NCBI RefSeq assembly: GCF_004027225.2
Contig: NC_044278.2
Coordinates: 9,176,001 to 9,240,000 of the forward strand
DNA from: Strigops habroptila
Taxonomy: Eukaryota; Chordata; Aves; Psittaciformes; Psittacidae
Length of the DNA stretch: 64,000 nt
Reading direction: 5' to 3'
Shown here one piece after another: positions 24,279 to 46,300 of this stretch; position 1 is the first letter of the stretch, and each line of letters opens with the position of its first letter. The notes under the pieces were generated by a model. It ran no database searches. It was not told the DNA's origin and saw nothing but the letters and a program-made list of their open reading frames with translations. The position numbers were made by a program, and so were the translations under genes.

Positions 24279-24459
24279 TAGCGCATAGCTACCAGCCCAT
24301 AACTAACTAAAAGCCGGCACATCCGCCGTGTGTTAACAGCGGAGAAGCGCCGCGGTGCCGCTCAGCACCCCCTTACCCCTCTCCCTTCCACCCCACAGCG
24401 CCATCACCCACCCCCTCAGCTAAGGGCCGCGACCGCACTGGGCCTGAGGGAGGGTGAGA

Positions 24460-24478
24460 ACTACACCTCCCAGCATGC
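24460..24478 (+). promoter_or_regulatory. ZNF143/SBS-type promoter motif
   Basis: ACTACACCTCCCAGCATGC closely matches the known ACTACAnnTCCCAGnATGC element bound by ZNF143 (with THAP11/HCFC1 reported at such sites). It lies inside the CpG island about 500 bp upstream of the start codon. Binding is inferred from the motif alone. Confidence 0.8.
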
Positions 24479-24522
24479 TCCGCGGCGGCGCAGCGCAGCC
24501 GGGGCCCTCCCTGCCCCGCTTT

Positions 24523-24541
24523 GCATGGTGGGAGCTGTAGT
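24523..24541 (-). promoter_or_regulatory. Second ZNF143/SBS-type motif, inverted
   Basis: On the minus strand this reads ACTACAGCTCCCACCATGC, one or two bases from the SBS consensus. It faces the first site with 44 bp between them. Confidence 0.75.
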
Positions 24542-24910
24542 CCAGCCGGAAGGCGCTGCTTGCGAAGGGCCGCGCCGCCGGCCGGTAGCTCCACGGCGGG
24601 GTAAGGGGTGGCCCCGGGGCGGGGTGGAGCGGGAGGGTTCCGGGCGAGCCTGCTCTGTTATCTCCCGTAGGCGCTCGGTCGTGCTTTCCGCCGCTGCCTC
24701 CGCCTCGGAGCGCTGTCCCGGCGGGGTAGGCGTAAGGGAGGGCGGGCGGCCGGGCGCTGCGCCTGTGGCTCTTGTGCTCCGGGTGGCCCTGAGCGGCTTC
24801 TTGTCTCCTTCATTCCGCCCTGCAGAGCCCGTAGTGGGAAGGGGAGGTGAAGCCGTGCTAGAGGAGCGCTCCGAAAGTTGAGGAGGAGGAAGAGGAGGAG
24901 AAGGTCTTCC

Positions 24911-24970
24911 ATGCACAGCGATGTAGCCCTGAACGTGGAACAGCAGTTCAGCTCCCAGAGCATGGGCTAA
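24911..24970 (+). other. Upstream ORF, 19 codons, ending 5 bp before the main start
   Basis: An ATG at 24911 opens a frame that closes with TAA at 24968-24970, five bases before the main ATG at 24976. Its start context is weak (T at -3). The arrangement could favour leaky scanning or reinitiation at the main start. Translation of the uORF is not shown. Confidence 0.6.
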
Positions 24971-24975
24971 AAACG

Positions 24976-25213
24976 ATGTCCCTCTCCCGTGCCGAAAACC
25001 CGTGTTTTCTGCTGTTCCTGTTTGTCTTCCAAGCGGTGTTTATCCTGATACTCTACCGAGGTGGACCTTCCCATGTGTTCCGGGGGTTTTTAGACACGCC
25101 GCAGGTTCTGGATTACTCCAAACCTCACGATGTGTACACAAACCTCAGCTTGTTCACTCGAGCTCCTAATGAAGAAGCTAAGCCCTACTGCTCGGCACAG
25201 TCACCGATATTTG
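24976..25213 (+). CDS. B4GALT3-like: B4GALT3-like exon 1: anchor and stem
   Basis: It encodes residues 1-79 plus one base: a short tail, the hydrophobic anchor [16 protein letters not shown], a short stem with [14 protein letters not shown] (sequon N56) and YCSAQSPIF. The donor GTAGGT at 25214 is chosen because it joins to TTGGTCCA of exon 2 to give SPIFVGP, matching SPLLVGP of human B4GALT3. Confidence 0.9.
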
Positions 25214-28200
25214 GTAGGTATGAACCCACAGCGTTTGAAGGAACTGCTTTGCAACGTGGTAATGCTGAACGCTTTGTAAATGTAAGTTGTGTATTATCCC
25301 CAACTTTTCCACTTTAAAACTGTTACGCTGGTGTAAGACTTTCGCTGACAAATTTTTCTTGCCTTAATTGACCCGTTTTTATCGGTTATATGAGGAAAAG
25401 TACTTTATTAACCTGAAAGCTTCCAATATTAAGTATTTGGCTGTGCAGAGATTGTAGAACAAGAGTGAAAACAGTGCATATGGGGTTAATGCCAAGTAAG
25501 TAACACTTTGGATTTTTTCCTTTGGTAACTGCATAATTTTGACCTCTGACTCACTGTAACTCCAGGGTTCTTTGTCTCAGCCTTATATCAAGCCTCTATC
25601 TCAATAGAAATCAATTAAGTTGGCTTTAAGTATTGTTTGTATGAGAATGTAGCTTGGCACCTTGCTCTTCGTGGCCATCTTTGTGGCCTGTGATTGTTAT
25701 GCATCCTTTAGACTTAGAAACTTCTCATTTAGACATAAAAGTCTGGTCACAGGCTAATTTGTATTTTCACTAGGACCAAGTTAGAGCTGACCCTAGAGGC
25801 AGCATTCATCCAGCTGCTGCACTGCTAAAAACAGTTGAGAAACTGTAAGTAAATACATAGTGAAACCCACAAAGCAAGTTTGTTGGTAGTAAAGTGGTGC
25901 ATCTCCAATAGTAGGGAATCAGGTCGACTGAGACAGCAGAAAAAGGTGAGTTGGTAAGTATGCACTTACAGCTGGTTTGGGGACACCTACTTCTGTGTAG
26001 TAAGTTACCCTTGTCTGGTTTTCTGTACTGTGCAGGTTTCTGCTTATCCAAGTCTTGAATATACTACTTGAAACTACTACTTAATAGTTGCCCTGCTGTT
26101 GTAGGAAGGCTGATCACCTCACGTGGAGCACGGTGGAGCACAGTAAAAGCAAATGGCTCTTACCACCTGGTTCAAGGTCAAAGTATTGTGGAAAGCCAGT
26201 GCTGTGATTACTCTTGTGTCAAGTTGCTTACTTCAGTTAAGAGAACTCTGCTTTGGATGAGCCTTTTTAGACTGCAGTCTTTGTAATGATGCTTGTTCTT
26301 CTGGGAAGGTTTCTTCCTTCCTCTGTTGCTGAGGTTAAATGAAATACGTGCAGGATGGATGACGAAACTGCATGATAACTTTTAGGGTATATACTTCAGC
26401 ATTTCCCTTGGAAACAGCTCTACTGAAATAGTACAGGGCCTTTTTGCACAGGTGCCAGATGGAGTGGGCTTTGTGCAGTCTCTGTTCATCGCTACCTACA
26501 GCCCATCAGTTCTTTTGGGAAGCTACAGTTCTGTGCTTCAGCCTGACTTGTTTTATTGGAACAAGCACAGCAGAAATGTGCCTGCACCCTGCTTGTCTCT
26601 GCTGCTGCGAATCTGCTGCCCTGCAAAGAGTCAAGTGACAGAGCTTTGGTCTCAAAGAAGACAAGCAACAAAACTGGGTGCAGTTCTGTGCAGCCTGCCA
26701 GCTATCAGATAAGTAAGAGTCATGACCTATATAAAGGAGGCAGACACAGAGTAAAATAACACTGATTGGTGCACTTAGAGCTGTGAAATCTTTTTAAGAC
26801 CTCTTCTGCCCATCCCTGATTCAGATCAGCTGAATTAAGCTGCAACTTAACTTTTACTCAGTGCTATTTCCCTTTAAATATGAGAAGTAAGTTGTTCCTT
26901 CTGGTATCACTATATGCCAGCCTTTCTGGGTGGTTTGGTTGGGGTTTCTTTTAGCAATGTGTACTACTCTGCAAGGTGGTTGCCCTTTGTTCTGTATGTG
27001 ATGGGCACATATGAATAGATACATGAATACTTCTTTATAAATGCCTTGATCAGCTTCTCTCATGGGACTGAGAGAATGACTGAGGCTTATGAGCCTTTAA
27101 TTTCCTAACGCCATTAAATGAGACTTCAAAACCATTCTCGAGGACTCCAGTCTTCAGTTCAGAGCTGTGTCCACTCCAAAGCGTGTTAAAGGAACTGGGA
27201 GAATGCCAAACAGCTTAAATGGTTTCTGCATCAGGGCTTTCATGAAGTACAGCGCTTCTTCCACTTATGTATATAGTAGATCATCTCGATCAGCTCATCT
27301 GTCTCCCACCTACCTCATAAATCTACAGCATCTTGGCTCTTCCAGGCCTGTGGAGGAAGAATTAAAGTATAATTGCTGAACATCTTTGCCTTGGAGGGAC
27401 TGGACTTGCTGACTGATGTTACTTTTTTAACACTTAGTAGTGTCCACTGAGCATTTTGTATCCAGCAGCTTGAAAAGCATTGTCCTAGATACTCAGTGGC
27501 TTCATTAACACTGTGAATAAATCACTCGAGTTCCTTTAAAGGTTAAAGTTTCTACACAAATAACCAGTTGCCTGTTCTCTCCTCCTTCGTCCTTGGAAAA
27601 GGCAGAGTGTCCTCTGGCTTTCTCACATTGCATGCAAGATGTGCTGTTTCAGCTCATCTTTTCCTCTTAGCAAGAACAACTTTGGTGCTAGAAGACTTCA
27701 AGAGGTACCTTCATGCACGGTGTGTGCTGAATGAGTTTGTTTGGCCCTGGAGGGCTTTAACAGTTGAAAGTTCTGTTTGTAACTCTGCTGTTTATAATCT
27801 GCTCATGCTGTGGAAGCATTTCTTTTCCTCAAAGCCCTTCTTAGACTAGTAACTGCCTTTCACTCCCTGTCATAACCTTGCCATGAGTGTAACCATCTAT
27901 TGTGGTAATGAGTAGGTAGCTCTTGCTACCTTTTCTAATGGAGGCTCTCCTGTTAAGAGTTTCTTCTCTTGGATTTAAAGAGCAGTAAAAAGGCGGTAAT
28001 GCTGAGATTCGTTTTCAGGGGCAGTTGAGGCAGCCTTGTATTCTGGTATTAGAAACTGGTTCTTAAGTTAAAGCTGTTGCTCTGCTTTTTTTTCTGCTGC
28101 TTCATTCAAACAGCGGTAGAATTGTACAAGTGTGACTCTGCTAATGCAGTGTGTGGTGCTGCACTTTCTCAGTGAGGTATTCATCCATGCTCCTGTTCCC

Positions 28201-31200
28201 ATTTGTTCAGCTTGTGTAAGTTCTGTTTATTCTCTTGGAAATGTGTAATTACAGCTGCTAACTCGAAATGTGTAGCAAGGAATTGAGAAGTCATGTCGTT
28301 TCTTTCCTAAGATGGGATGGATGTGGTCACAATCAGTAGATTCCCCCTGATAGGCAAATGTGTTGCCTAGAAAGTAAAGCAACAGGAGTGTGCTGTCACT
28401 GGCACCAGTGACAAGTCAGACAGGGAATTGTGGGGTTTAACTCTACACACTAAAGTTTCACATCAGTTAAACGTTGTGTGATGATACAGGCACAGGAAGA
28501 GCTTAGGAACCAGCCTATGGGGAAATATCTTGGATGCTTCAGGGTGTTGATCCTGCACCTTGTCTGAATTGGGATCCTGTGCTTTCCAGCATGTCTAAGA
28601 TGGTTTTTCCTTCTTTCCCAGAGCTGCACTCCAGCAGTTCTGTTTCTCTTTGTTTGGTCCAGCCTGCAACTGCTCTGTTCACATCTGGGATTTAACTGGA
28701 TTACAGTGCATTAGCCTTTGGGTAGTTGGGAGACTGCAGAGCCACAAAGTAGCTTGTACCAAGCAGTGTAGGGCAGCAGAGGTTTCAGGGACGTAAGTCA
28801 CAGACTAACTTCTTTTCTTCCGTGTTTCCATGGCATATTGAGTTTCTGAGCTGAGGAGTTTGAGGTATGGAGCTTGGTAAAACGTGACATCTTGAAACCC
28901 TGGGAAAATGCAGATGTTGCCCTCTTGAATAGAATCCTAGGATCAACTCGGTTGGAAAAGACCTTCAAGATCATCAAGTCCATTACCCCAGGACTGCCAA
29001 GACCACCACTAACCCATATGACTGAGGGAAATGAATATGCTTGGGTATGGAAGGAGACAACAGGAGTGAAACTATTGCATGTTACCTTACTCATTCCCTT
29101 ATGTCCAAATTTAGATTGGATTGTTTAGACTTGAAGGATTATTGCTACAGAATCCTACTCTGCAATACAAAGAGCCCTGATTGTATTATAGAACACAAAA
29201 CACTGCTGTTATGTGAGAACAAAAGGGATTAATTCCCTATATCTTATATTTTCCTTGGAGCAATGATGTGTAGTTGAAATCCAATCTGAATATAACATTC
29301 CTTTAGCAAGCTCCAGTTGTTATCAAATCAGTGGGTAATGGTGCATCAGTTAAAGATCTGATCATCAGGGAGTTCATAAATCTAAAAAGCAATAAAAACT
29401 ACAGGTTACAAACAATGTTGGACTGAAACGTGGTGGTCTTAAAGGCAGAAAAAGAAACTGCATAGAATCATGGAATCAGCCAGGTTGGAAAAAACCTTTA
29501 AGATCACCAAGTCCAGCCGTTCCCCAGCACTGCCAAGGCCACCACTAACCCATGTCACTGAGGGCCTCGGCTACACGGGGTGTGAACGCTTGCAGGGACG
29601 GTGACTCCAGCACTGCCCTGGGCAGCCTGTTCCAATGCCTGAGCACCCTCTGGGGAAGGAATTGTTCCTCAGCTCCATCTAAACCTCCCCTGGCGCAGCT
29701 TGAGGCCGTTACCTCTTGTCCCATCCCTTGTTCCTTGGGCAAAGAGACTGACCCCACCTCGCTCCATCCTCCTGTCAGGCAGTTGTAGAGAGTGACAAGG
29801 TCCCCCCGAGCCTTCTCTTCTCCACACTAAACCCCCCCAGGTCCCTCAGCCGTTCCTCATCACACTTGTGCTCCAGGCCCTGCACCAGCTCCATTGCCCT
29901 TCTCTGGCCCTGCTCCAGCAACTCAATGTCTCTCTTGTAGTGAGGGGCTCAGAACTGACACAGGATTCAAGCTGCGGCCTCACCAGTGCCCAGCACAGGG
30001 AGAAGTAGAGTAGAAGTAGGTAATAACTTCATAAAATCTTAACCATAGCTATGACCTAGATTCGTGGGCCCACAGCATGATTCTCTGAAACAATGCTCCT
30101 CTGTTTGAGGTATGGCAACATATTCACACTTCCTACTGAGGGTAGCACAGTCAAAATCAAATTCCCCTGCATTTGAGATACTTCGGGAAGGCCTGAAAAG
30201 CGAGTCAGCTATTGCAAGAGCTTGCTGACAAACAAAAGTCAGGTTGTCCTTTTAAAACCAAACCTAACCTAACCAATAAACCCCATGAAGTGGGATTCCC
30301 AGCGGCTACACCTTTCTGAAAGCATGAGGAATGGGATCACTGGCTTTTCAGACTGACCCTCACAAAGTGCCCTTGTGTGTTCCTTGAGGAGGGAAAGGAG
30401 ATACTTCCCAATACAGGTTTGCCCATCAGAAATGGGAGTTACACCAACTTGCACATACTAGGAAAATGTTCCCAGTTCTGAATGGCCAGCTGGAAACTTG
30501 GGCCCAAATTTAGTCCCTAAGCCTTGTTAGGGCTCAGAACACCCCAAACTTTCCCCCAAAGCAGTGGAGGGGTGTTGCTGCTTTGTGTCAGTTAAACAGG
30601 ATGTGGGGTGAACACAGGCTCTTTTTTTGTTGTGGTTAGAATTGTAACAGGAACTTGACTATAGAATGGGCTGGAAGAAGAACCTTGTGGACTCAACTGC
30701 TTCAATACTTAGACTTGAAACACGCCTGTACCTTGCCCTGCTCAAAGGCAAGCTACTCAACACCAGGCCTAAATATTTGCTCTTTCTTTCAGGCTTCAGA
30801 GAACGATTGATTTCTGGGGTTTAAGAGGGAGTCTGACTTACAACATCCTGAAAACTCAGTCTGAGACATTAAGAATGAGCTTGGAAGGAAAAGAAGATCT
30901 TATTTATAACTATTTAAAACCAAAATCAAACTAAACCAAACCACCAATAATTTACCTGGCAGGCTTCTGGTGCAGAACCGTACGTTGTCTTTGGGTAGCA
31001 TGGTCTGCAGAGAATTGTTGGTCCTACTTCAAACTCTCATGTGAAATCATCAGCTGTTAATTGTGATTTAGGTGAATCTTTCTAGTTCATTTAAGGAATA
31101 GATTTTAATCTTCTGCATTTGTGCTCTCTGTTTTCCTACGAGTTGACAGTGGTTGGAAGCCATGAAGAGACACTGGTTTAATATAGAAACTAATAGACCT

Positions 31201-34200
31201 CTTCTGGTAGTTCTGGAACCTTCTCTCGTTGCTCAGAACAGATATTGAAATAATTGATTTGTTTCTTCATACTGTAGCACTAGCAGACCTCTGTTAAAAT
31301 GGTAGTTGACATTTGCTATAGATTCTTTCTTACCTGTGACTTGTCAAGCTGTTTCCATCTGATGAACGGAAGAATTAATCTAAAGATGCAGATTTTGATG
31401 AGGTAAGAACTGAGGAATACATCCAGTATGTTTTGTGTTTACTATCAGAGTGCTGAGCAGAGAAACACTCAGATGTGCCCTGTGCTTCTTCCTGAAAATG
31501 TAACATATCTCTCTTCTTCCTTCTCAGTTGTCACCTGCTGCTCCCCAAATTCTGAAGCACTGCCTGCTTATCATGGTGTAGATAATTAAATGATACAGCA
31601 AGAACAGCCTTTGTGGCATGTAACTAGAACATCAAATTGAGCTTGAAACTGTTTTAAGATCAAGCTAACATTTCCTAAAGCATTTATATTCATCTAGGCT
31701 TTAAGCTATTTCTTCCCCAACCTGCTGAATATCCTTTTGGACATCCTCTGTGCCAGTGTCTGAAGGGGCCTACAAGGACGCTGGAGAGGGACTCTTCATC
31801 AGGGAGTGTAGCGATAGGACAAGGGGTGATGGGTTCAAACTGAAACAGGGGAAGTTCAGGTTAGATATAAGGAAGAAGTTCTTTACTGTGAGGGTGCTGA
31901 GGTGCTGGCACAGGTTGCCCAGAGAAGTGGTAAATGCTCCATCCCTGGCAGTGTTCAGGGCCAGGTTGGACAGAGCCTTGGGTGACATGGTCTAGTGTGA
32001 GTTGTCCCTGCCCTTGGCAGGGGGTTGGAACTGGATGATCTGAAGGTCCTTTCCAACCCAAACCATTGTATGATTCTATGTGGGTACATCTGTGGTGGTG
32101 TTACCTGTTCTGCAGGAGGGCTGATGTCTGAAGTAGTAAACGTGTACCTAATGTGATAGGTGTGAATGAAGGTTGAGAAACATCGCTGATCTTTACTTTT
32201 TTTCCCTTTTTTCTGTCTTCTCCTCACAGTTGGTCCATTAACCATCACCTTCAGAGTGCTCCCTAGTGAAAAAATGATCATCAGAAAAAACCCTTTCGTT
32301 CAGGCTGGTGGCACCTACAGGCCACCTCACTGCCTGCCCCGCTACAGATCAGCCATCCTTGTAGCCTACAGGAACCAGAAGAAGTACCTTCAGCACCTTC
32401 TCTACTATATCCATCCTTTCTTGCAGCGCCAGCAGCTCAGTTACACCATCTACTTGATTCAGCAGGTAAAGCTCAATCAGATGTGCCTAGTGGGGTAGCT
32501 GAGCTGCTCAGTTCAGGGTTAGGTTCTGAACAAGGAACCTAATCCTATTCTTCTGTGGAAGTACCAATTTCATGCATGGGCTGAGAGGAGGTCAGGTTTA
32601 TGCTGTCCCATCTCCATACCATCATTCTGCTATTGATTGGTTCTACTTTTTCTCCTGCAGAGGGATAAAGTCATTAAAGTCATTAAGTGGTAACTTGTGT
32701 TTTCAGCTCCTCAGGAGTTGAATGTGGCTTGTCTGTAGCTTGTCACTGTGGCTACTGAGCAAAACTGGGGAGACTAAATGCTAAAGTGAAATTAGGTATT
32801 TTTTAGTCTGTATCAGACAAAAACATCTGGTTTGACCCTGCTGAGGGGCAACCTGGCTTATGGGTCTTTTAAAAGTGAGCCTTCTTCAGGTGCCCATGGT
32901 ATATAGCCCCTGGCACAGCAAAGGGTACAACTGAGAACACTGTGAAGAGAATGGGTGACATTTTTAGAGGCTGGGGCATGAAATCCGCAGCCAATATTGA
33001 TTCATCCCAGGTTTATTCCATCAAATAAGGTTTTTTTGCTTACATAAATGGAAATGGAGTTCTCATCCTTGTTGTTTTGGTGAAGAAATGTAGGTTTGCT
33101 TTTCCAGGTGGGAAATGGTACCTTTAACCGAGCAAAGCTGCTCAATGTCGGTGTCCGGGAGGCCCTGAAGGATGAAGACTGGGACTGTCTGCTCCTGCAC
33201 GACGTCGACCTGGTACCTGAGAATGATTATAACCTCTATGTTTGTGATGAATACTATCCCAAACACATGGCCAGTGCTATGGATAAGTTTCAGTACACGT
33301 AAGTGCCTCTGTTTCCTTTGGATATGTATTCTAATTGCACTTTGGCATAGAAAGTAGGAATGGGGACAGTGAGAGATACACCTTTAAGAGGTTTTCTGTT
33401 TGTTAGTTTTGCAGTAGTGACTTCCCCAGAAAAGGGTGTTCTTAACCTTAGGTATGCAGTTAGGAACAGTGAGGAACAGTTAGGAGCAGTTCCTTACCTG
33501 CAGTTCCCTGTTGCACTCTTAGCTCAGCCTGGCAAGTGAGTGGCAGATTCCTGTTTGCCTTTCCTTCCAGAACAAAAGTAGAGGGTGGGAATTATTGGAT
33601 CAAGTGGAAGGTGTGTGATAGGATGCAGGTCTTTTGAACTGCCCCAAGATGTGACTTTCAAAACCAGCTTTACTTCAGTCTGCTGGGGGAGAAGGTGGTA
33701 GGGATGGGAGGGGAGGAATTACACTGGGTTTGCTGTTCTGGATTTGAGCACTGTTATGGCGGCGTCTGTGAGGTATGTGATTGATGTATGTGTGACTTGG
33801 ATGATGATGTTAGTTTGTGGAGGGCTGGTATTATCCTTCAATACTGATATTTTTTTCCCTTTCTCTTTTAGTCTGCCATATAAGTCCTTTTTTGGGGGTG
33901 TATCTGCTCTGACTCCAGAACATTACATGAAGATGAATGGGTTTCCAAACACGTACTGGGGCAGTGGTGGTGAAAATGATGACATTGCTACCAGGTACTA
34001 ATGCTGAAACAGAACCAAGCTGGCTCGTGACCATGTAGCATTATTACCCTGAGAAAGGAACTGAGATGATGGATGTTCCTTCGTGTGGTTGCAGTATCGT
34101 TATAATCCAAAATGCTGTTGGCATTGGGAATGGTTAATGTCAGCAGATGCTCAGAATCTCTGAATCCAGTCATTGTATGCTGGGAGGACAAGGCTTTCCG

Positions 34201-37200
34201 CAGACTCTGGAGGGCACAATGTTACTTCAGGTCCTTGTGCCTTCAGTGGCTCTGAAGTGTGTCCAAGGGGTTATAACCACCAGTAGCTGACAAGTGACTC
34301 CCTTGACATTACCAGTCCCAAGGGAGGGAAGGAATCTGCAGGCTTGATGAATAAAAAACCCTAGAAGGTGCTTAATAATGCTCAGCCAGTTGGGAATTTA
34401 AGTTATGTGAAGTGCATTTAGGTTGCTCCAAGTGTTATCTAATCACCAGTACTTAGAATTAAGGAAGACAAGGAGTTGTGGCTGCAGTGCTGAGGGATGG
34501 AGAAGCCTGTGTACTCCTGTGAGACAGTGACAGCAAATCTGATGGGGTTTCTTGAGTTGCCATGGCAGCAGCACGCTGTACAAGTGAATACAATGAGTTT
34601 AGTTCCAGCCTAACTCAAACCCTTCAAGTACAAAACCAGGGCTGTGGCTGCTTTATTCAGCTTTGCTGTTGCATTGTGCACCTTTATCTCATGCAAGCTC
34701 ATGAGGAGTTTAGTGCACCAGCACTAAAGGCCTTGTGTGGATTTTGTCTTGCCCAGTGTGAGAGGTTACACAGGTTCAGTGGAATGTTCTGTTCCGGGAC
34801 TGTAGGAGTTTTTAGAAAGCAGTATTCTTCTGGGAATTGAAAGTCAGCTTTTCTAACATAGAATTCCTCTTTTTCCTTTCAGAGAAAGCTTAAGTAAAAG
34901 GGTGTAGGATTGTTGAGAGATTCAGCATTTCCTAAAGGAATGGAATGCTGGGGGAATAGATCTTTCCATCAAACATGGGTCTATTCAGCTGTTCTTAGTA
35001 CAGCTCAGGCACCTAACATGGTTTTCAATACCATGCCAGCTATGGCTGCCCTAGGTTATGTACATCTCAAAATAGCCCTTTGGTGAAGGGGAGTAAATCC
35101 TGTGGTGTTTCTCTGAAGCTCATGCTAATGATTAGCAGTGGGGTGGCCACAGGTACACAGAGGCCAGGGCAGGGCCTGTTAATGATTTATCCATCCTCAA
35201 CCTGCTGGAGCGGGGCCAGAGAAGGGCAATGGAGCTGGTGCAGGGCCTGGAGCACAAGTGTGATGAGGAACGGCTGAGGGACCTGGGGGGGTTTAGTCTG
35301 GAGAAGAGAAGGCTCAGGGGGGACCTTATCGCTCTCTACAACTGCCTGACAGGAGGATGGAGCCAGGAGGGGGCTGGTCTCTGCTCCCAAGGAACAAGGG
35401 ATGGGACAAGAGGAAACGGCCTCAAGCTGTGCCAGGGGAGGTTTAGATGGAGATGAGGAACAATTCCTTCCCCAGAGGGTGCTCAGGCATTGGAACAGGC
35501 TGCCCAGGGCAGTGCTGGAGTCACCGTCCCTGCAAGTGTTCACACACTGTGTAGCTGAGGCCCTCAGTGCGATGGGTTAGTGGTGGCCTTGGCAGTGCTG
35601 GGGAATGGTTGGACTTGATGAGCTTAAAGGTCTTTTCCAACCCGGCTGATTCTGTGATTCTAAGTTGGGAATGAGCTGCCTGATCGTGAATGACCAGCTT
35701 GATGCACCTACTGGGATTTGGATTTTAGAGGGTGCTCACACACTTCTTACCATGTAGCAACAAAATGACTATTTGAAATTGGACACTGAAATGCAGTACT
35801 TGTCTTAGCAAACACCAGGATCTACCTGTTATTAGAAGCAAACACTAAAACTGGAAGCACTTACATGTTGACATTATCAGCTCCAGGGAAGTCTGTTGGT
35901 TTCTTCTTAACAGTAAATGAATGTATTGACTCTTTCGTGTTACGGTTTTAGTGGAATCTTGTAATGCAAACCCAGTAACAGCAAAGCTCGTTCAGGGTTT
36001 GTGCTTTTTCTTGTCTCTTTGATTGAATCTGCTTATGTTCAGAAAACAAGAAACCTTGTCTAAAACTCAGTCGGACATGACAGTGTGTCAGACTGTCAGT
36101 GTTGTCATTATGTGATGGCTCCAGACTAACAAATCCCTTCAGATCTGTAGCCTGTGCCAGCTTTGCAGCATTCCTGGTTCAGTGCACTTCGCTGCTGTAC
36201 CAGCTCTGGTACACATGTTACAAACATGCCACTGAGGTGACCTCAGTTGAGCAAACATTAGTTCTTAGGATCACGAGTGTGATGACGGAGGTTTGCTGGC
36301 CCTGGCACTGCTGCAGGCACTTGGGATGGGAAAACTACCATAGGTGCCATCCGCAATGGGTTACAGCATCTGAAATGCTGGGTTTAAGAGCTCCCTTCTG
36401 GAATTCTGAGCCTTCAGCTCACTCTGTTCTTATCTAACTGCCCCGCAGCTGAGTGGTTCGGGTTGGTTTGGCTGGTGCCTGTGGTTATCACAGACCATCT
36501 GAGTGAATGGCACTTCTCAAAGAACAGAGGGAGGCTTAATCAGGACTCTTCATCAGGGACTGTACCGACAGGACAAGGGGTGATGGGTTCAACTGAAACA
36601 AGGGAAGTTCAGGTTAGATATAAGGAAGAAGTTCTTTACTGTGAGGGTGCTGAGGCGCTGGCACAGGGTGCCCAGAGAAGCTGTGGCTGCCCCATCCCTG
36701 GCAGTGTTCAAGGCCAGGTTGGACAGAGCCTTGGGCAACATCATCTAGGGTGACATGTCCCTGCCCATGGTAGGGGGTTGGAACTGGATGATCTGAAGGT
36801 TCTTTCCAATCCAAACCATTCTGTGATTCTATGATCTGAAACTCGGCACTGGCTTCCTTTCAGAAACTGCAAGTTTATCTTTTGGGGTTGTTTTCATTTC
36901 GGTGATGGAGGCCTAGGCAGTGAAAGCTCTGCTCTTGCAAGGGAGTGAGAATCATGCTCAGTTGTGAGATTGAAGGGGATAGCTCTGGAATGCTCTCTGT
37001 GCTGTTGTTCATTCCCTGCTTGCTGTAATCCTCTTTGTACACTGTCAAAGCACCCTGCAGCTGCGAGCTTTCCAGCCCAAGCCTGTGTAGGACTTGCTAG
37101 AGGAGATAACATGGCACTGTGGTGTTAAACCCACTCCCATCAGCCTTTTGCTTTTCCTGCATTAGCACTGCAAATCATCCCTGGGTTTGCATTCCCCTAT

Positions 37201-38452
37201 ACCTAAGCCTAGAAATGGCATCTTTATGCCTAAAAGCAACCATTTCCTTTGTTATTTTAAAGGATTCAGTTGGCAGGAATGAAAATAGTCCGGACCCCGC
37301 CTCACCTGGGACGCTTCAGAGTGATGGACTATGATAAAAGGATGGAGACACAAGAGCCTTGGAGAAGGTAAGTGTTGTGGGGGGGTGGTGTGTGGAGTTA
37401 GGAGGCTGCTCTCTGCCTTGTTGCCATCATCTGCCTCAGAACAGGCAGTAAGTGTCACTATGTCTAATGCCACTGCTTGTTCTTCCTGCTTTCATGTGGC
37501 TATTTAAAGGAGTCTCCCAGGAGCAGAATGATTCAGTTGCAACTGACTGTTTTGAAGGGTTTCTCCTGGTTTCCTACCTTTTTCCCTATTGTTAAGGACA
37601 CATGCTAGCTAGGAAGCTCACACATGTCAGACTTACTCCCTGATGCTTAAAACTTGGGAAAGGAAATACTGCCTGTCTTGTAACTAGGGAGAGTTCAGTG
37701 TGAAGAGGCACTTTGTTACAACTTCTCTCTAATACAAACCTGCTCTTCAGTCTGTGTGGATTTACAATGTGCTGTTAAAATACTGGCAAGCAGTAGCCTA
37801 GTGTGAAGACATGAGGAAAGGATTGTGAGAGACATTATTCAGTTGTATCTAAAAGAGCTGGAGGAGGGTGTTGGGTCAAGTGTGGTGAAGGCTTCCCTTT
37901 ACCATTTCAAACCTCAGGCTTCCATAGCAACCCTGTTTTAAAACCCACCTAGAGCAGCGTGTGTACATCATTGTTCTGAGCCCCTGTGGTGCACACCCTG
38001 CTCTTGCTCAGCTGCTGCTGGTTCCTGGTTGCTTTCAGACTGTAGTTGTCACCTCACTGGTCTGATTAGGTTCCAGTCCTAATTGTTCTCCGTGTTTAGA
38101 ATACTCAGAGTGAACTTAATCTGATCTGTTCAGTTTTACAAAGCGCCTTCTCTCTGGATTAGGGATTATGATTAATCTGTATTATATGAGAAGAATTTTC
38201 TTGGGGCTTTGCTGCTGACAGCTTTCCCCTGCTAAACCCTTGGAAGGCTGTTTCTTCAGCTGCAAACATCACCTTTGTTCTTATAACTGCAGGTATTCTT
38301 CCTTCCTCAGGCCTGCTTCCCGCCACAACACCAGGAAAACATGGAAAGATGATGGAATGAATTCATTAGAGTTCAAGCTCCTCTCCAGGACAAAGCATCC
38401 TCTTTACACCAACATCACTGTGGACATTGGTTATGTTCCCCCCTTTTCTTAG
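24976..38452 (+). CDS. B4GALT3-like: B4GALT3-clade galactosyltransferase homologue, 6 exons, 344 aa, probable pseudoenzyme
   Basis: The coding exons are 24976-25213, 32230-32465, 33108-33298, 33872-33994, 37263-37367 and 38311-38452, totalling 1035 nt in one open frame with GT-AG introns. The product is a type II GT7-family Golgi protein with a hydrophobic anchor at residues 10-27. B4GALT3-like marks are [12 protein letters not shown] near 47-58, [26 protein letters not shown] and DIATR plus LAGMKI. The family [10 protein letters not shown] motif (189-198), FNRAKLLN and the C-terminal DDGMNSL and YTNITVDIG are kept. However, against bovine B4GALT1 numbering it shows P187A (A125), R191Q (Q129), Y289F (F228), W314S (S253), D318N (N257), M344V (V283), H347Y (Y286) and F360P (P299). 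D254 (D192), E317 (E256) and D319 (D258) are kept. Classical beta-1,4-galactosyltransferase activity is therefore doubtful, although the intact frame argues for selection. The start has A at -3. Family assignment is firm; orthology to mammalian B4GALT3 is likely but untested. Confidence 0.9.
28928..29027 (-). repeat. CR1 LINE fragment, reverse, second subfamily
   Basis: A reversed CR1 tail of the type reading 'ggttggaaaagaccttcaag' then 'accaccactaacccatatg'. It shares this 3' end with the copies at 29462 and 41508 rather than with the 'gggttggaaaggacct' type. Confidence 0.85.
29462..30005 (-). repeat. CR1 LINE fragment, reverse, about 540 bp
   Basis: A longer reversed CR1 covering the 3' tail, the 'cactgccctgggcagcctgtt' block and the distal region up to 'accagtgcccagcacaggg'. 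It lies antisense within intron 1 of the B4GALT3-like gene. Open frames within it are repeat-derived. Confidence 0.92.
31748..32081 (+). repeat. CR1 LINE fragment, plus, just upstream of B4GALT3-like exon 2
   Basis: It runs from 'gtgtctgaaggggcctacaa' to the 'cattgtatgattctatg' tail. It inserted in sense orientation about 150 bp before the exon 2 splice acceptor at 32229. Confidence 0.92.
32230..32465 (+). CDS. B4GALT3-like: B4GALT3-like exon 2: start of the catalytic domain, altered donor-binding motif
   Basis: It encodes residues 80-158 ending in phase 0 (IYLIQQ). HPFLQRQQL is the family signature. Where active members read PHRNR or PFRNR, this gene reads AYRNQ at 125-129, losing the Pro and the second Arg that line the UDP site. 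The donor is GTAAAG. Confidence 0.9.
33108..33298 (+). CDS. B4GALT3-like: B4GALT3-like exon 3: DxD motif exon
   Basis: It encodes residues 159-221 plus two bases: [20 protein letters not shown], then [16 protein letters not shown] with the DxD motif at 190-192, and MDKFQY. All expected residues in this exon are kept, including the FNR turn. The acceptor is TTCCAG and the donor GTAAGT at 33299. Confidence 0.92.
33872..33994 (+). CDS. B4GALT3-like: B4GALT3-like exon 4: mutated WGWGGEDDD exon
   Basis: It encodes [18 protein letters not shown], then [23 protein letters not shown]. The near-invariant WGWGGEDDD has become WGSGGENDD through codons AGT at 33963-33965 and AAT at 33975-33977. The donor-specificity Tyr is Phe at residue 228. 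The 123-nt size equals that of B4GALT4 exon 4 in this window. Confidence 0.92.
35205..35663 (+). repeat. CR1 LINE fragment, plus
   Basis: It runs from 'cctgctggagcggggccaga' through 'gagcacaagtgtgatgagga' to the 'ggctgattctgtgattct' tail. It belongs to the same 3'-end type as 29462 and 41508. Confidence 0.92.
36543..36834 (+). repeat. CR1 LINE fragment, plus
   Basis: It runs from 'gactcttcatcagggactgt' to the 'cattctgtgattctatgat' tail, in sense orientation in intron 4 of the B4GALT3-like gene. Confidence 0.92.
37263..37367 (+). CDS. B4GALT3-like: B4GALT3-like exon 5: metal-ligand exon with ligands lost
   Basis: It encodes residues 264-297 with split codons at both ends: [19 protein letters not shown], then [16 protein letters not shown]. 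Active members have an M-x-x-H metal motif here, MIRH in B4GALT1 and MIFH in the adjacent B4GALT4. This gene has V283-M-D-Y286 instead. The 105-nt length is unchanged and the donor is GTAAGT, so the change is by substitution rather than by indel or mis-splicing. Confidence 0.88.
38311..38452 (+). CDS. B4GALT3-like: B4GALT3-like exon 6: C-terminus
   Basis: The exon follows TTCCTCAG and encodes [21 protein letters not shown], then [19 protein letters not shown] and YVPPFS before TAG at 38450. The DGMNSL and YTNITVDIG segments are typical of the family. The acceptor-pocket Arg (R298) is kept but the following Phe is Pro (P299). At 142 nt it equals B4GALT4 exon 6. Confidence 0.92.
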
Positions 38453-38897: not shown

Positions 38898-38903
38898 AAT
38901 AAA
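38898..38903 (+). terminator. Candidate poly(A) signal of the B4GALT3-like gene
   Basis: The first AATAAA after the stop codon lies about 450 bp downstream and would give a short 3' UTR. Confidence 0.6.
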
Positions 38904-40256: not shown

Positions 40257-40398
40257 TTATGAGACCTTGGGCTGCGCACTGAAGTCCACCGTGATGTTGA
40301 TATATAAAGGGTTACGTTCCACTGAGAGCAGTTTATATGAGCAGGAGTTCAGCCCATCTGTTTTCCATGTTTTAGACACCTGACTTAGAAGCTTCATC
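40257..40398 (-). CDS. B4GALT4: B4GALT4 exon 6 (last coding exon)
   Basis: After a TTCTCAG acceptor it encodes [20 protein letters not shown], then [19 protein letters not shown] and SAQPKVS with TAA at 40259-40257. The sequence follows human B4GALT4 closely until the last few residues, where the human WFGA end is replaced. Confidence 0.94.
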
Positions 40399-43300
40399 CT
40401 GAGAAGAAAAGAGGAGAAAATCTTCACTGACATGCACAGGAGAGAGGTGTTTTGAGCTCTTTCCCACTACTAGTAAACTTGGAAGCAGAGCTACTGCTGT
40501 TCTGTACTGCTGGCAACATAAAATCATGCTTTTCCTGTCCTCAGCATGGACAATCAGACATGAAAATGCCCATTTGGCCTAGAACAAAGCTCTTGGCCCC
40601 AGGTGCTTGGCTACATGGAAGGTGGGACCCTGTTCCTGACTCACCTCTCTTCATTCTCCTCATTCCCATGGTCTCGCTTGTGGAAGATCATTGTATACCT
40701 GGCTACCTCAGCAGGTGGCCTCATCACTCCCATCTTCTGCAGGTGAACCCTGGAAGAAGCAATAGTGCCATGAGCAAAGCTTCACCTATAAACAAACTCT
40801 CAAGGAAAAAGGAAACAACAACATTTGGAGACTTCATCTCTCGTGGATGCCACGGAAGCAAGCACAGAGAACAGCAGGAAACTCATCTACATCTCTTCCA
40901 CAGCCCATCTCGCCAGAGAAATGGGGCTTAGGGTTGTGTTTCTGGAGAACAGAGCCAGCAGGGTGACAGATGCCCCTTTCTTTTGGTAGCAGGTAGCTAC
41001 TACAGTAGAGGTCATCCAGAGCTTAAAGCACACGTTGTACAACAGAGCTCATTTAAAATAGTATGGTCTGGTCTAGTCTGTGCTACCCTGTATTAACCTG
41101 GGAGGGCTGGAGCAAGATCCCACATGCTTTGCAGCAAGTTCATCTCAACTCCTGCCATAAAACCTTTATATACTTGATAGTTCTCCACTTGAAAAGGGGA
41201 AAAAACCACCCAAAAAAGCTTCTTTTCTTTTTCACTAGTTGGCACAGAGCTGCAAAACTTGTATTTGTCCACATGAAGAAAAAGTCCTTTCTGACAACAG
41301 GGCCAGAAACCCTGAGCTCCACACATGGATTTAAGTGTTGGACATCAGGCACCCAAGTGGAGCTTGCTTTCGCATATCTGTGGAGCACAGGAGGTTTGCT
41401 CTGTCAGCAGAAAGGGTTAACTTCATGCCTGGAATTAAGGAACAGCCCAGGTCTTTGCACTCATGTCAGCAGCTGGGAGAGCAACAGGAAACCAAGAATT
41501 GAAGAACCACAGAATCAACTTGCTTGGAAAAGATCTTTAAGATCATCAAGTCCAACCGTTCCCCAGCACTCCCAAGGCCACCACTAACCCATGGCACTGA
41601 GGCCTTGGCTACACGGTGTGTGAACACTTGCAGGGACGGTGACTCCAGCACTGCCCTGGGCAGCCTGTTCCAATGCCTGAGCACCCTTTGGGGAAGGAAT
41701 TGTTCCTCAGCTCCATCTAAACCTCCCCTGGTCCAGCTTGAGGCTGTTTCCCCTTGTTCCTTGGGAGAAGAGACCGACCCCACCTCACTGCAACCTCCTG
41801 TCAGGCAGTTGCAGAGAGCGATAAGGTCCCCTCTGGCCCTTCTCTTCTCCAGACTAACCCCCCCCCAGGTCCCTCAGCCGTTCCTCATCACACTTGTGCT
41901 CCAGGCCCTGCACCAGCTCCATTGCCCTTCTCTGGCCCCGCTCCAGCACCTCAATGTCTCTCTTGTAGTGAGGGGCCCAGAACTGACACAGGATTTGAGG
42001 TGCAGCCTCACCAGTGCCCAGCACAGGGGGACAATCACTGCCCTGGCCCTGCTGGCCATGCTATTGCTGAGCCAGGCCAGGATGCTGTTGGCCTCTTGAC
42101 TGCCTGGGCAGAAGCTGCTCGTGTTCAGCTCCGTCAATCAGCACCCCCAGGTCTTTTTCCATGAGCAGCTTTCCAGCCACTCTTCCCCAAGCCTGGAGTT
42201 GTTGTGGCCCAAGAGCAGGAGCTGGCACTTTGCCTTATTGAACCTCATATTATGTATTAGCCACAGCCCATCGATCCAGCCTGTAAAAAACCGAGCCCCT
42301 GACAGCTTTCCAATGACTGTTTGTAGCAGGAAAATATCAAATAAATACAAGAAACGATCTGAAAAGTCTCCTTGTGATGCACAGCTTCGGAAGGGACCCA
42401 AGAGAGCCCACCACACTTAGCACAGTAGGACCTGAGAGCACTCAGGCCCTGAGTTCTTCAAGATACTGAAGGGGATGGTGCCATCTGCTGCCTTTCCTGG
42501 GGAAGGCTGCAAGATCCCTGCACAGCCACCCACCGGGACAGCAGCACCTCATTCCCTACCCACTGCAGACTCCCTAACCAGCCCAGTCCAAGATCCACCC
42601 AAGAGGAAAGGCATGAGCCAAGTCCATGCACTCTGGGTCATGCGATGTGGTTTCCATGCCAGGACCTCAATAACTAGAGAGTTACACAAGCAAGCATCAC
42701 TTCTGGTTCCAACCCCTTGCAAACATTGAGGAGACCCTCAGTAAATCCTGCTGCTCTGCTGCCCACGGCAACACCACCATCACCTTTGTTTGCACCTTAA
42801 CTAGGACACTTCTTGGAAAGGTGGGGAATAAGATGGTATCAAGCTGTCCCCTACCACTATCAAAGCCAGCTCCCAAGAGAAGTTGGTGTCTCTAAATAGG
42901 AGTAGGGAGAAAAAAACCCAGCTGTGATTAAGAAGGGACAGAAATCCAGGTCTCCAGTAGCCCTTTTAGATTTCTTGAGGTACAGCTGCCTGACACAAAG
43001 GAAAACTTCCATTTGGAAGTTCCTAACTCTTAACACACTTGATTTCACCACTCTAATCATTGAACATCGCCAGGGAGATGAATTTATGTCCCAAAATGGT
43101 TGGTTGTATATTTAAGCAACTGAAAAGGACAAACACTGAAGAATGATGTAGACTTAAGTTACAAATCGATGTGCTCTGCCAGCAGAGCTTGGGGGATTGT
43201 GGTTTATTCCTGTTGGGTTTGTGTTCTGTTTGCCCCCTTCCCTTTCCTTCACTAACAGCAATGCAGGATTAGAGGTTTCCTTTCAAGCAAAGGGCAAAAG

Positions 43301-46300
43301 ATCACCAGCAAAGTTTGGTTGTGTCCTTTGTGCCATTCAACTTCTCAACCTGACAGGTTTCTCCTGCTTTGAAAGGCCCATCTGCAAAGCTGGATTTCAG
43401 AAGCACAAAAGGCACATGCAAATACACGCAGCCTTTCTAAACCTCAAGCTATTCACTATGTTAACTAGAATCAACACCACCCCCATACAAACTAAGCTGT
43501 GCTTGGAGTAAATCATGGTAGTCAATGAATGCAAAAAAACCCCAATCCCACCAAACCAAACCCCTCCCACACTCTTACAAAGCACTGGAGCTGAATACAT
43601 CTGTGTCTCTTTGGCAAATCACCCTCCAGACTTCAACATTCCTGCTGCTGTGATAACCAATTCCCAAGTGACAATGCGAATCCTGTGTGGCTGAGACAAC
43701 CCCAACCCAAAACCTAACAAAGCCCCCACCCAACCAGCAATACTTGTCAGGGAGAAGACCAGGTCTCAGGCATGCCCAACCTTTGCAAAGAGGAAACTGT
43801 GCATCCTGTACCCCAAATCCCCACTGTTTGGAACAGAAGGCTCCTGTCGTATTCCACATTTGGGGGCCAGGTGGGAAGTCACATCCATTTCTATTTTTTT
43901 AGGCACCATTTCTCTCTAGCCTTTTATTTCATAGAATGGTTTGAGTTGGAAAGGACCTTCAGATCATCCAGTTCCAACCCCCTGCCATGGGCAGGGACAC
44001 CTCACACTAGATCACATCGCCCAAGGCTCTGTCCAACCTGGCCTTGGACACTCTCAGGGATGGAGCATTCACCAGTTCTTTGGGCAACCTGTGCCAGTGC
44101 CTCACCACCCTCACAGTAAAGAACTTCTTCCTTATACATAACCTGAACTTTCCTAAATGATTGACTTTTTACCTGATTCGTAGGTCATCATCTTCTCCAC
44201 CCCAGCCCCAGTAGTTGTTAGAGAATCCATTCACCTTGGCAAACTGATCCCTTGTTAGAGCAGTTACACCTCCAAAATATCCTTTGTACCGTAACCTAGA
44301 AGTACACGAGAGGAGAGAATGAAGAATTAAGAGTCAAATTCTACCAACAACGAAAACCTCACCCTGAAACTCTGGATTTAGACATGTCTTTCACAGAGCT
44401 GAGGGTGCACAAACCCATGAGGTTGCTCTGGTTGTCCTCCTCTTTTCACAAGAAGATGGTGATTTGCTCTAGGCCAGAAAGATGAAACTCTCCAACTGAG
44501 AGAACAGCTCCTTCTTCAACAGTTTCCCTCTTCACACAACTCCCCTGGCCAGGCAAAGAGCACTTCACCTCAAGGACTCCCATGAGTACAAAAGGAACAA
44601 AGCCACACACTCACATAGCAGAAGCTCAAACGGAAGCCACTGACTACCTTGGAGCTGAAGCTGAGAAACCTGGAATGAAACCAGGTCACAGCACAGGGAC
44701 ACGTGCACTGAGATACTGCAGGAACAACTCCAAGGTAAGGTACAGTGTGAGTTGCTAAGTAACCTATTGTAATGGTGCTCAGCTCTAAAGGAGATTCAGT
44801 TCTACCTTCCTTGTCCTGGGAACTGCAGCTGCTTTAAAGGTATTTACACACCACGTTGTTTATGTTCTTACATCATTTTGCTACTTGCTTTTTATGATCC
44901 CCTCCTCTTGCTGGGCCCTTAAGGTGAGCAGTACAACACAGCCCCTGCTACATTGCCACTGCCAGAGGTGATGTGCCCACAGCTGCAGGTTCCATTTGGA
45001 TTGCTAGATGGATGTGAATCCAAACAGGTGAACAAATTGCCAGGGCTAGAAAACACCCATGATGGCAACTTACATGCCACAGAAGCAAAGGTGTGAGCCT
45101 TATTGCTATTTCTGGTTTACCAGGAACCTAATTTAAACACACACACAGAGAATACAACAAAGAAAGCAAACCCACACCACACAACCTCCCTCAGACCAGT
45201 TTTGGTGGCTGATTTGTGCTCCTGTTATAGCATCACAAGAGAACTGCAGAGCTTGAGGGGCCTCTGGAGATGAAGGAGTCCAACCCCCCTGCTCAGGGTC
45301 TGCTACAGCGAGTCACTGAAGACCACGTCCATTCAGGTTCTGAGCATCTCCAACGATGGAGAGTCCACAACCTCTCTGGGCAGCCTGTTCCAGTATGTGA
45401 CCACCTTCAATGTTTTAGGATAGAAACCTTCCTTTCTGAAGGATCTAAACCTGTAGTTTGTGTAACTAAACATAAGGTACTGACTTCTCCAAAGCTGCCA
45501 AGATCACCATAGATGATGCACCCACATTCCTGCCCAGGATGTTGCGTGTTAATGCACAACATGCACAACTTCCATACATCTAAGTGACATCTCTCAGTAT
45601 GCTCACCTCAGCCTAAGCAAAACACTAAGGTCACCCAACTGGGCTTTCAACCCCAGGTGTCAGCTCAGTTCAGGTATCATTCTTGAGTTCAGGACCTGAA
45701 TTCCTTCAGATGTGCTCAGGAATTCCTTTGGAAACACAGTGCTGTTATCCTCACTTCATGGATGGGTAAAGAGAGGCAGTGACACAGAACAGAAAGTATG
45801 AATCAAACTCCAACCACCAGTATCCCAGCAAATATTGGTGCAGGGTATTCACAACAACCACATTTTGTCTGCACCCTTTAAAGCCAAAGCTTAAAGCTTT
45901 CTATTCTTTAAAGCACTCTTTTTAAGTACTCTTTAAAGCCAAAGCTATAACTAACAGTTCCTTTCCACAAGCAGGAGAAACCTGAGGAAATCCATAGTAA
46001 GAGGATCCTGCAGTAAAAGCAAGACTCCATCCACTTAACTAAGCAGAACACCTGCAGTAAAACTGAGGCACAGGAGGTTAAGTAAAGCACCTCAAGATTT
46101 GTGCTATGTTATCAGCCTAAATTCTACATGCCTGTCCATTACCCAAAGCAGTGTTTCTGGTGCTTTGGTGCACTGACCATCCCGTAGCCCTCAGCATTCT
46201 GTCTGCAAGGCAGAGTGCTCCAAAAGCCTGTCACAAGCCTAGTTCATACGTGCTTGTTCCAGTTTGCACTAAATGACTGGGAAGTGAATGGTATTCTGCA

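Follow-up and report, generated by a model that had tools for sequence, protein, structure and literature searches.

Does a gene that has kept its reading frame and lost its catalytic residues still encode an enzyme? A stretch of 64,000 nucleotides of the Strigops habroptila genome (the window) raises this question with a gene annotated "B4GALT3-like", here called B3L. Six exons at 24976-38452 on the plus strand join into 1035 nt, that is 344 codons and a stop, with GT-AG at 5/5 introns and an intact frame, so that the splice-site and frame check agrees with the preliminary description of this locus, which had proposed the same frame. Coding exon 1 (24976..25213; donor GTAGGT) carries the ATG, cytosolic tail, membrane anchor and stem, with an N-glycosylation sequon NLS at residue 56. 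The catalytic domain begins in exon 2 (32230..32465; AG acceptor, GT donor), which holds the replacements P187A and R191Q, and exon 3 (33108..33298) keeps the DVD motif. Exon 4 (33872..33994) encodes the Trp loop, with an altered 11-residue segment (W314S, D318N), and also carries Y289F; the lid starts in exon 5 (37263..37367), where two Mn ligands are gone (M344V, H347Y); and exon 6 with the stop (38311..38452) has an NIT sequon at residue 332. On the same strand, a CpG-island promoter region lies at 24300..25000 (GC 0.67, CpG observed/expected 0.79 versus 0.26 at 23000-24000 and 0.12 at 26000-27000) and a candidate polyadenylation signal AATAAA at 38898..38903.

The neighbouring B4GALT4 (40257..52580 from start codon to stop, minus strand) stands tail to tail with B3L, and its strand had not been given before. 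With its 10-residue active-site motif intact, it served as an internal control outside the finding itself. Counted from the splice sites, exons 4-6 measure 123, 105 and 142 nt in both genes, as previously claimed. Like B4GALT3 and B4GALT4 (GT7), B3L has both Pfam halves above cut-off in the window protein (PF13733, E 2.7e-54; PF02709, E 4.1e-23), a predicted GT-A fold and a type II anchor. Moreover, all four luminal disulfide cysteines, C72, C114, C185 and C204, are present and presumably pair into two disulfides.

With F360P, the replacements above make up the eight that the preliminary description had named, and all eight are found in a residue table that follows bovine numbering, with Cys342 of 1fgx as its anchor, and is based on a 122-row alignment of 120 database rows, the window protein and bovine B4GALT1. 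The Trp loop WGWGGEDDD with the catalytic Asp318 is absent from the window protein. Two of the three Mn ligands are lost (Met344 to Val, His347 to Tyr), as had been stated; the third, Asp254, is kept, and the DxD motif is intact (LHDVDLV). The claim that B4GALT4 retains all eight residues held for seven, position 360 being Met. F360P itself, though present, is weak evidence, because active-looking anamniote B3L rows vary there (F 10/27, Y 9/27, H 5/27) and the window B4GALT4 differs as well. Misalignment was ruled out, since the residue table holds across the anchored alignment, and so was sequencing error, because independent species lost the same sites.

Which gene this is was decided by phylogeny. 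The preliminary description had assigned it to the B4GALT3 clade; this placement was not recovered, and the trees indicate that B3L is a separate, ancient jawed-vertebrate paralogue. In a 61-row tree, a B3L clade of sauropsid, amphibian, shark and ray-finned members stands apart from true B4GALT3 (SH-aLRT 100), with the sauropsids forming one clade (support 100). A smaller second tree again gave the B3L clade a support of 100, and both trees rule out an identity with true B4GALT3. In the smaller tree, the shark rows P0129 and P0114 (annotated B4GALT3 or 3-like) attach beside B3L with a support of 93, which leaves the shape of the true-B4GALT3 side unsettled and the B3L clade unaffected. Birds and reptiles also keep true B4GALT3, with its active site intact. 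No mammalian B3L orthologue was found among the organism-named rows in the best 120 rows of each of three homologue searches, the only mammal named there being platypus (P0144), which groups with true B4GALT3. A search with the tuatara protein listed no further sauropsid B3L row among its matches.

The orthologues date the loss. Orthologues of sauropsid B3L occur in amphibians and fishes (Xenopus laevis 'beta-1,4-galactosyltransferase 3-like 1' is one); unlike sauropsid B3L, their rows covering the sites have WGWGGEDDD, Met344 and His347, and judged by these residues they are presumably active. Keep counts were made over 52 sauropsid rows (birds, turtles, gharial, tuatara, lizards and snakes; P0078 assigned by similarity alone) and 69 others (amphibians, fishes and true B4GALT3), with gaps set aside. 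Trp314 is kept in 0/46 sauropsid rows covering the position versus 69/69 others, and, with a few isoform rows possibly misaligned near 344-353, His347 in 1/46 versus 66/67 and Asn353 in 0/40 versus 67/67. Asp252 and Asp254 are kept in 40/52 and 44/52 sauropsid rows, one or the other being gone from many squamate and a few bird rows. These residues suggest that the active site disappeared in the common ancestor of birds and reptiles, on a stem placed at about 280 My; the reading that we favour, with some reserve, is the fixation of a Golgi pseudo-galactosyltransferase on that stem.

The loss is selective. Three sets of rows served for the selectivity, entropy and tail/anchor statistics: 37 of true B4GALT3, 27 of anamniote B3L and 24 of sauropsids, the last made up of the window protein and 23 complete or almost complete sequences. 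Another 28 sauropsid rows, for the most part fragments or isoform models, stood outside these statistics, and the anamniote rows P0072, P0074, P0076, P0080 and P0084 were in neither selectivity set. The active-site column list is assumed to follow the structure papers from which it was taken. Of the family-invariant columns, sauropsids lost 17/25 in the active site versus 12/76 elsewhere (Fisher p 2e-6, treating rows without correction for shared ancestry, as all column tests here do except the Fitch counts below), the other 64/76 staying fixed. The corresponding losses were 10/25 and 6/76 in birds, 11/25 and 11/76 in turtles, gharial and tuatara, and 21/25 and 16/76 in squamates, the last figure speaking against the explanation preferred below; the controls lost 1/22 and 2/76 in frogs and 2/23 and 2/72 in fishes. 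All ten residues of a core active-site list were lost (10/10), versus 20/93 in the rest.

Furthermore, what was once the pocket is now about as variable as ordinary columns. Among sauropsids, columns of the former active site have an entropy of 1.04 bits, the other invariant columns one of 0.24 and the never-invariant ones one of 0.89. Fitch counts, which alone correct for shared ancestry (made over the 23 sauropsid rows of the tree, which lacks P0023), give 3.48, 0.74 and 2.96 changes per column, respectively, with 10 changes at 314, 7 at 347 and 10 at 353. Only 8 sauropsid-specific columns are conserved in at least 22/24 rows, three of them in the tail or anchor and one (F289) in the pocket list.

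Outside the pocket, much is maintained. Over the 24 sauropsid rows, the commonest residue accounts on average for 0.85 of a tail column and 0.87 of an anchor column. For the Falco orthologue, which shares 91% identity with the window protein, a B4GALT1-type GT-A fold is predicted (pLDDT 81), and the model matches bovine 1o0r_B in Foldseek with a TM of 0.91 by target length and 0.73 by query length at 45% identity; the mean pLDDT of lid residues 291-300 is 45, versus 72 in the frog orthologue. The W314A structure 1pzy is also among the Foldseek matches of the Falco model, and W314A reportedly has a strong effect on B4GALT1 activity. Identity between birds and turtles is 0.77 for B3L (catalytic domain) versus 0.88 for true B4GALT3, and between birds and squamates 0.67 versus 0.87; B3L evolves faster, indicating that its constraint is real but looser. 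Frameshifted orthologues, proposed earlier as the sign of a decaying pseudogene, were not seen among the orthologues listed: frames of about 340-360 aa are intact in birds, turtles, gharial, tuatara, lizards and snakes.

B3L is most simply taken to be transcribed and spliced, as 'lgn' contigs, none longer than 2349 nt, are the sole source of P0008, a whole 361-aa B3L, compared with a coding-exon span of 13.5 kb in the window. Five birds have annotated models of 301-304 aa that lack the Trp-loop exon 4 (P0015, P0017, P0018, P0020 and P0021). A frog (P0122) has such a model too, so exon-4 skipping was discarded as a mark of a pseudoenzyme.

How, then, should an intact gene with a drifting pocket be explained? 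The database names, beta-1,4-galactosyltransferase 3 or 3-like, and the two Pfam halves would suit an ordinary active enzyme that tolerates its replacements; we regard this as very improbable, given the near-complete retention of Trp314 and His347 in all other rows and a report, citing earlier work, that M340E alone costs B4GALT1 94% of its activity (PMC6198961), several such losses being combined in B3L. Judged by its residues, B3L is very probably inactive in canonical Mn/UDP-Gal transfer. Slow decay, in which the constraint is a leftover in a protein without function, draws on the faster evolution of B3L, on the heavier losses in squamates than in birds and on the lack of mammal-named rows in the best-120 lists, by which the gene may be dispensable somewhere. 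It is improbable in view of the intact frames, the CpG-island promoter and the 64/76 fixed non-catalytic columns; moreover, in a neutral simulation of the B3L coding sequence (substitutions only, 0.6/site), 0/300 runs stayed stop-free and mean identity fell to 0.34, versus the 0.77 observed between birds and turtles.

A pocket rebuilt for another donor, acceptor or metal-independent mechanism would account for the kept predicted fold, the frequent retention of Asp252 and Asp254, and Y289F in 45/46 covered sauropsid rows, at a position known to set donor choice in B4GALT1; the near-uniform F289 (23/24) and P360 (21/24) could likewise be explained by a rebuilt site. A new enzyme should fix its pocket, however, and positions 314, 347 and 353 changed repeatedly, F289 is the only pocket position among the eight conserved sauropsid-specific columns, and many squamates and a few birds have dispensed with Asp252 or Asp254. 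We therefore consider this neofunctionalised arm of the preliminary interpretation unlikely, because most of the former pocket was not re-fixed, while its pseudoenzyme arm is strongly supported by the orthologues, with loss on the stem and then drift as fold, anchor and cysteines were kept. Also unlikely is a lectin-like or sink role, in which B3L would bind glycan or nucleotide without catalysis rather than an enzyme partner: at least 90% of the 24 sauropsid rows retain Phe226, Arg228, Tyr311, Trp312, Gly316, Asp319, Asp320 and Arg359, but on the acceptor side Y289, W314, D318 and F360 have been replaced, and most of the lost pocket positions are drifting. In birds, where Asp254, Phe226, Arg228 and most of the DxD survive, B3L may retain weak nucleotide binding or residual activity.

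We thus prefer, on balance, a pseudo-galactosyltransferase that acts through a partner. B3L has an active-looking ancestor, has lost catalytic residues and is conserved in the rest, the marks of a Golgi pseudo-glycosyltransferase. It would be a type II membrane protein, for which we infer a Golgi location, with an apparently active beta-1,4-galactosyltransferase as its ancestor. Its losses on the Sauropsida stem would be the Trp-loop tryptophan, Trp314, and of the lid/Mn-ligand residues Asn353 and very probably His347; later lineages would have lost Asp318, Met344, Arg191, Pro187 or even Asp252/Asp254, while selection would still maintain the folded luminal domain, cysteines, tail and anchor for what is probably a non-enzymatic job. 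By heteromerising with an active Golgi transferase, either another B4GALT or a sialyltransferase acting after it, B3L may tune the activity, stability or location of its partner; by analogy with known systems, we give this partner or regulator mode an even chance. B4GALT4 and B3GAT1, named in the preliminary description, would be candidate partners.

Such systems exist in other families. COSMC (C1GALT1C1) and CHPF are transferase relatives that support an active partner, as a chaperone and a polymerase subunit, respectively, and CHSY3-CHPF structures are among the weak Foldseek fold matches of the Falco model. MGAT4D (GnT1IP-L), a mammalian GT54 pseudo-glycosyltransferase, resembles B3L in being a paralogue of active Golgi transferases, but B3L belongs to a different family and is sauropsid, not mammalian. 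MGAT4D was reported to be active in medaka and inactive in mouse, and loss of the lectin domain in mammals did not by itself explain the inactivity (PMC12616123). The luminal domain of GnT1IP-L was reported to inhibit MGAT1, with which it forms heteromers in the Golgi, and not to interact with B4GALT1 (PMC4572887), so the precedent names no B4GALT as a target. The Glu/Arg pair reported to form the dimer salt bridge of human B4GALT1 (E313/R330; PMC6198961) is kept in 21/24 and 23/24 sauropsid rows, but as it is conserved in all GT7 enzymes, its retention may serve the fold. Other dimer-interface positions are changed, namely 289 (F 23/24), 360 (P 21/24), 363 and 364, and H343A in human B4GALT1, the equivalent of the lost histidine, was reported to abolish homodimers in cells (PMC6198961).

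No published description of sauropsid B3L was found among the titles and abstract starts listed in searches of open-licence papers. If our explanation is correct, B3L would give the B4GALT family a pseudoenzyme clade that goes back to the sauropsid stem, and its active-looking orthologues in frogs and sharks would serve as natural before-and-after controls. Since databases name it a galactosyltransferase, glycan-pathway models built on annotation would be wrong in birds and reptiles. It is conceivable, though we hold it only tentatively, that an ancestral enzyme lost outright by mammals became in sauropsids a dead B4GALT subunit regulating another B4GALT, contributing to the glycan differences between mammals and birds or reptiles. 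The non-catalytic role of a Golgi transferase would become directly testable in chicken cells.

The coding exons of B3L, the gene annotated as "B4GALT3-like", lie on the forward strand at 24976-25213, 32230-32465, 33108-33298, 33872-33994, 37263-37367 and 38311-38452, spanning 13.5 kb. Rejoined across introns that all show GT-AG splicing, they form a 1035-nt frame of 344 codons and a stop, confirming the six-exon model of the preliminary description. The start is covered by a CpG island (24300-25000; GC 0.67, CpG o/e 0.79), and an AATAAA motif is present at 38898 (+). The protein carries a tail, membrane anchor and stem, and matches both GT7 domain halves (PF13733, E 2.7e-54; PF02709, E 4.1e-23). 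Intronic repeats of ~100-540 bp (28926-29028, 29464-30003, 31753-32080, 35203-35661 and 36543-36836), which are 74-93% similar to other copies in the window, are presumably CR1-type elements. B4GALT4 (40257-52580, reverse strand) lies tail to tail with B3L; counting from its splice sites reproduced the described lengths of exons 4-6 (123, 105 and 142 nt). A glucuronyltransferase gene of at least three exons (10780-13909, +; last coding piece 13826-13909), whose best solved-structure match was B3GAT1 (361 bits; B3GAT2 265, B3GAT3 234), may be B3GAT1 itself or a second copy beside B4GALT4.

All eight replacements described for B3L, P187A, R191Q, Y289F, W314S, D318N, M344V, H347Y and F360P (bovine B4GALT1 numbering, used throughout), are present, and Asp252 and Asp254 are intact. 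F360P is not diagnostic of lost activity, because position 360 varies among active-looking B3L orthologues and the neighbouring B4GALT4 has Met there. The use of B4GALT4 as an internal control fails at this position but holds for the other seven; its 10-residue active-site motif is intact.

A protein search with B3L returned 1123 matches, the best 120 of which were surveyed. These included B3L from birds, turtles, gharial, tuatara, lizards and snakes and, at ~55-64% identity, from frogs, salamanders, caecilians, sharks, gar and bichir. In a 61-row tree, B3L rows formed one clade (SH-aLRT 100) separate from true B4GALT3, contrary to the B4GALT3-clade placement proposed earlier, and sauropsids formed a clade within it (SH-aLRT 100) broadly tracking the species tree. 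Together with the amphibian and fish orthologues, this tree argues that B3L is an ancient gnathostome paralogue and not B4GALT3 proper, although databases label it "beta-1,4-galactosyltransferase 3-like" or plain "3". No mammal-named orthologue was among the matches listed in three protein searches; a platypus row was rejected, as it groups with true B4GALT3.

Residue retention was counted over 52 sauropsid and 69 other rows, with rows covering each site as denominators. Trp314 is kept in 0/46 sauropsid rows versus 69/69 others, so that its loss is best placed on the sauropsid stem, at roughly 280 My. Similar contrasts were found for Tyr289 (0/46 versus 67/69), His347 (1/46 versus 66/67) and Asn353 (0/40 versus 67/67), while Asp318 (15/45 versus 69/69), Met344 (14/46 versus 67/67), Asp252 (40/52 versus 69/69) and Asp254 (44/52 versus 69/69) are partly retained. 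Asp318 and Met344 were lost later than Trp314, and repeatedly (8 and 5 Fitch changes on the sauropsid tree). The only sauropsid row with His347, a Euleptes gecko (P0019), has lost Trp314, Glu317, Asp318 and Asp252; in Gavialis (P0014), a deletion shortens the Trp loop by one residue (PNTYWGAGSEDDI). In-frame isoforms skipping exon 4, which removes the whole Trp-loop region, are annotated in birds (P0015, P0017, P0018, P0020, P0021) and a frog (P0122).

Constraint was assessed at 101 invariant columns, where the bovine B4GALT1 residue occurs in ≥95% of 27 anamniote B3L and of 37 true B4GALT3 sequences; 25 of them are active-site columns. The 24 sauropsid rows had lost 17/25 active-site versus 12/76 other columns (odds ratio 11, p 2e-6; column tests ignore shared ancestry, for which Fitch counts partly allow). 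The losses were 10/25 versus 6/76 in birds, 11/25 versus 11/76 in turtles, gharial and tuatara, and 21/25 versus 16/76 in squamates, against 1/22 versus 2/76 in frog and 2/23 versus 2/72 in fish controls; a stricter ten-residue core gave 10/10 versus 20/93. Sauropsid entropy at former active-site columns (1.04 bits) resembled that at never-conserved columns (0.89 bits, p 0.47), whereas other invariant columns stayed mostly unchanged (0.24 bits); Fitch changes per column were 3.48, 2.96 and 0.74, respectively. On average, the most frequent residue at a position accounts for 0.85 of sauropsid rows in the tail and 0.87 in the anchor, and all four luminal cysteines are present. Neutral simulation of the coding sequence reduced identity to 0.34 at 0.6 substitutions/site, with 0/300 runs stop-free, against an observed bird-turtle identity of 0.77 in the catalytic domain. 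Constraint on B3L is nevertheless looser than on true B4GALT3 (bird-turtle identity, 0.77 versus 0.88; bird-squamate, 0.67 versus 0.87).

The model of the Falco orthologue (91% identical to the window protein), of fair confidence (pLDDT 81, pTM 0.80), adopts the B4GALT1 fold (TM 0.91 by target length to 1o0r_B). In B4GALT1, the lid closes over substrate; in the Falco model it is among the weak parts (residues 291-300, mean pLDDT 45), versus 72 for the matching Xenopus block, both models being built from the same 70 sequences. The stem and loop 211-230 are weak in both. One full-length B3L (P0008), grouping with a grouse, is known solely from "lgn" contigs no longer than 2349 nt; given the 13.5-kb span in the window, these are most simply read as spliced RNA, although they may represent a retrocopy.

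Without the Trp-loop tryptophan and one of the main Mn ligands, B3L should no longer carry out canonical transfer, as M340E, a change at a weaker ligand, alone costs B4GALT1 94% of its activity according to earlier work cited in PMC6198961. The preliminary description had left open a pseudoenzyme or a neofunctionalised transferase. A rebuilt pocket is disfavoured, because the lost positions, except F289 and P360, carry no new near-uniform residue across sauropsids; loss of catalytic columns with the rest constrained favours a pseudo-galactosyltransferase. No published description of such a B3L pseudoenzyme was found among the titles and abstract starts listed in searches of open-licence literature.

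Sauropsid B3L retains a membrane anchor and a domain of predicted GT-A fold, which might serve to bind partners. Golgi transferases are described as assembling into both homomers and heteromers (PMC6198961, PMC4572887). As a precedent, GnT1IP-L/MGAT4D, a mammalian Golgi paralogue that lacks activity, is reported to form heteromers with MGAT1 and inhibit it through its luminal domain (PMC4572887). A regulatory role for this pseudo-galactosyltransferase is therefore favoured. The medaka orthologue of MGAT4D is described as active (PMC12616123). The Glu/Arg pair of the B4GALT1 dimer rim, noted as conserved across GT7 (PMC6198961), is kept in 21/24 and 23/24 sauropsid rows, while other dimer-interface positions are changed. 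H343A, at the human equivalent of the lost His347, reportedly abolished B4GALT1 homodimers (PMC6198961), which means that B3L would have to contact a partner in a different way; the lack of GnT1IP-L interaction with B4GALT1, as stated in PMC4572887, also counts against a regulator. We consider the finding real, the gene being ordinary in structure and unusual in evolution: in birds and reptiles alike, B3L is a conserved and probably dead galactosyltransferase.
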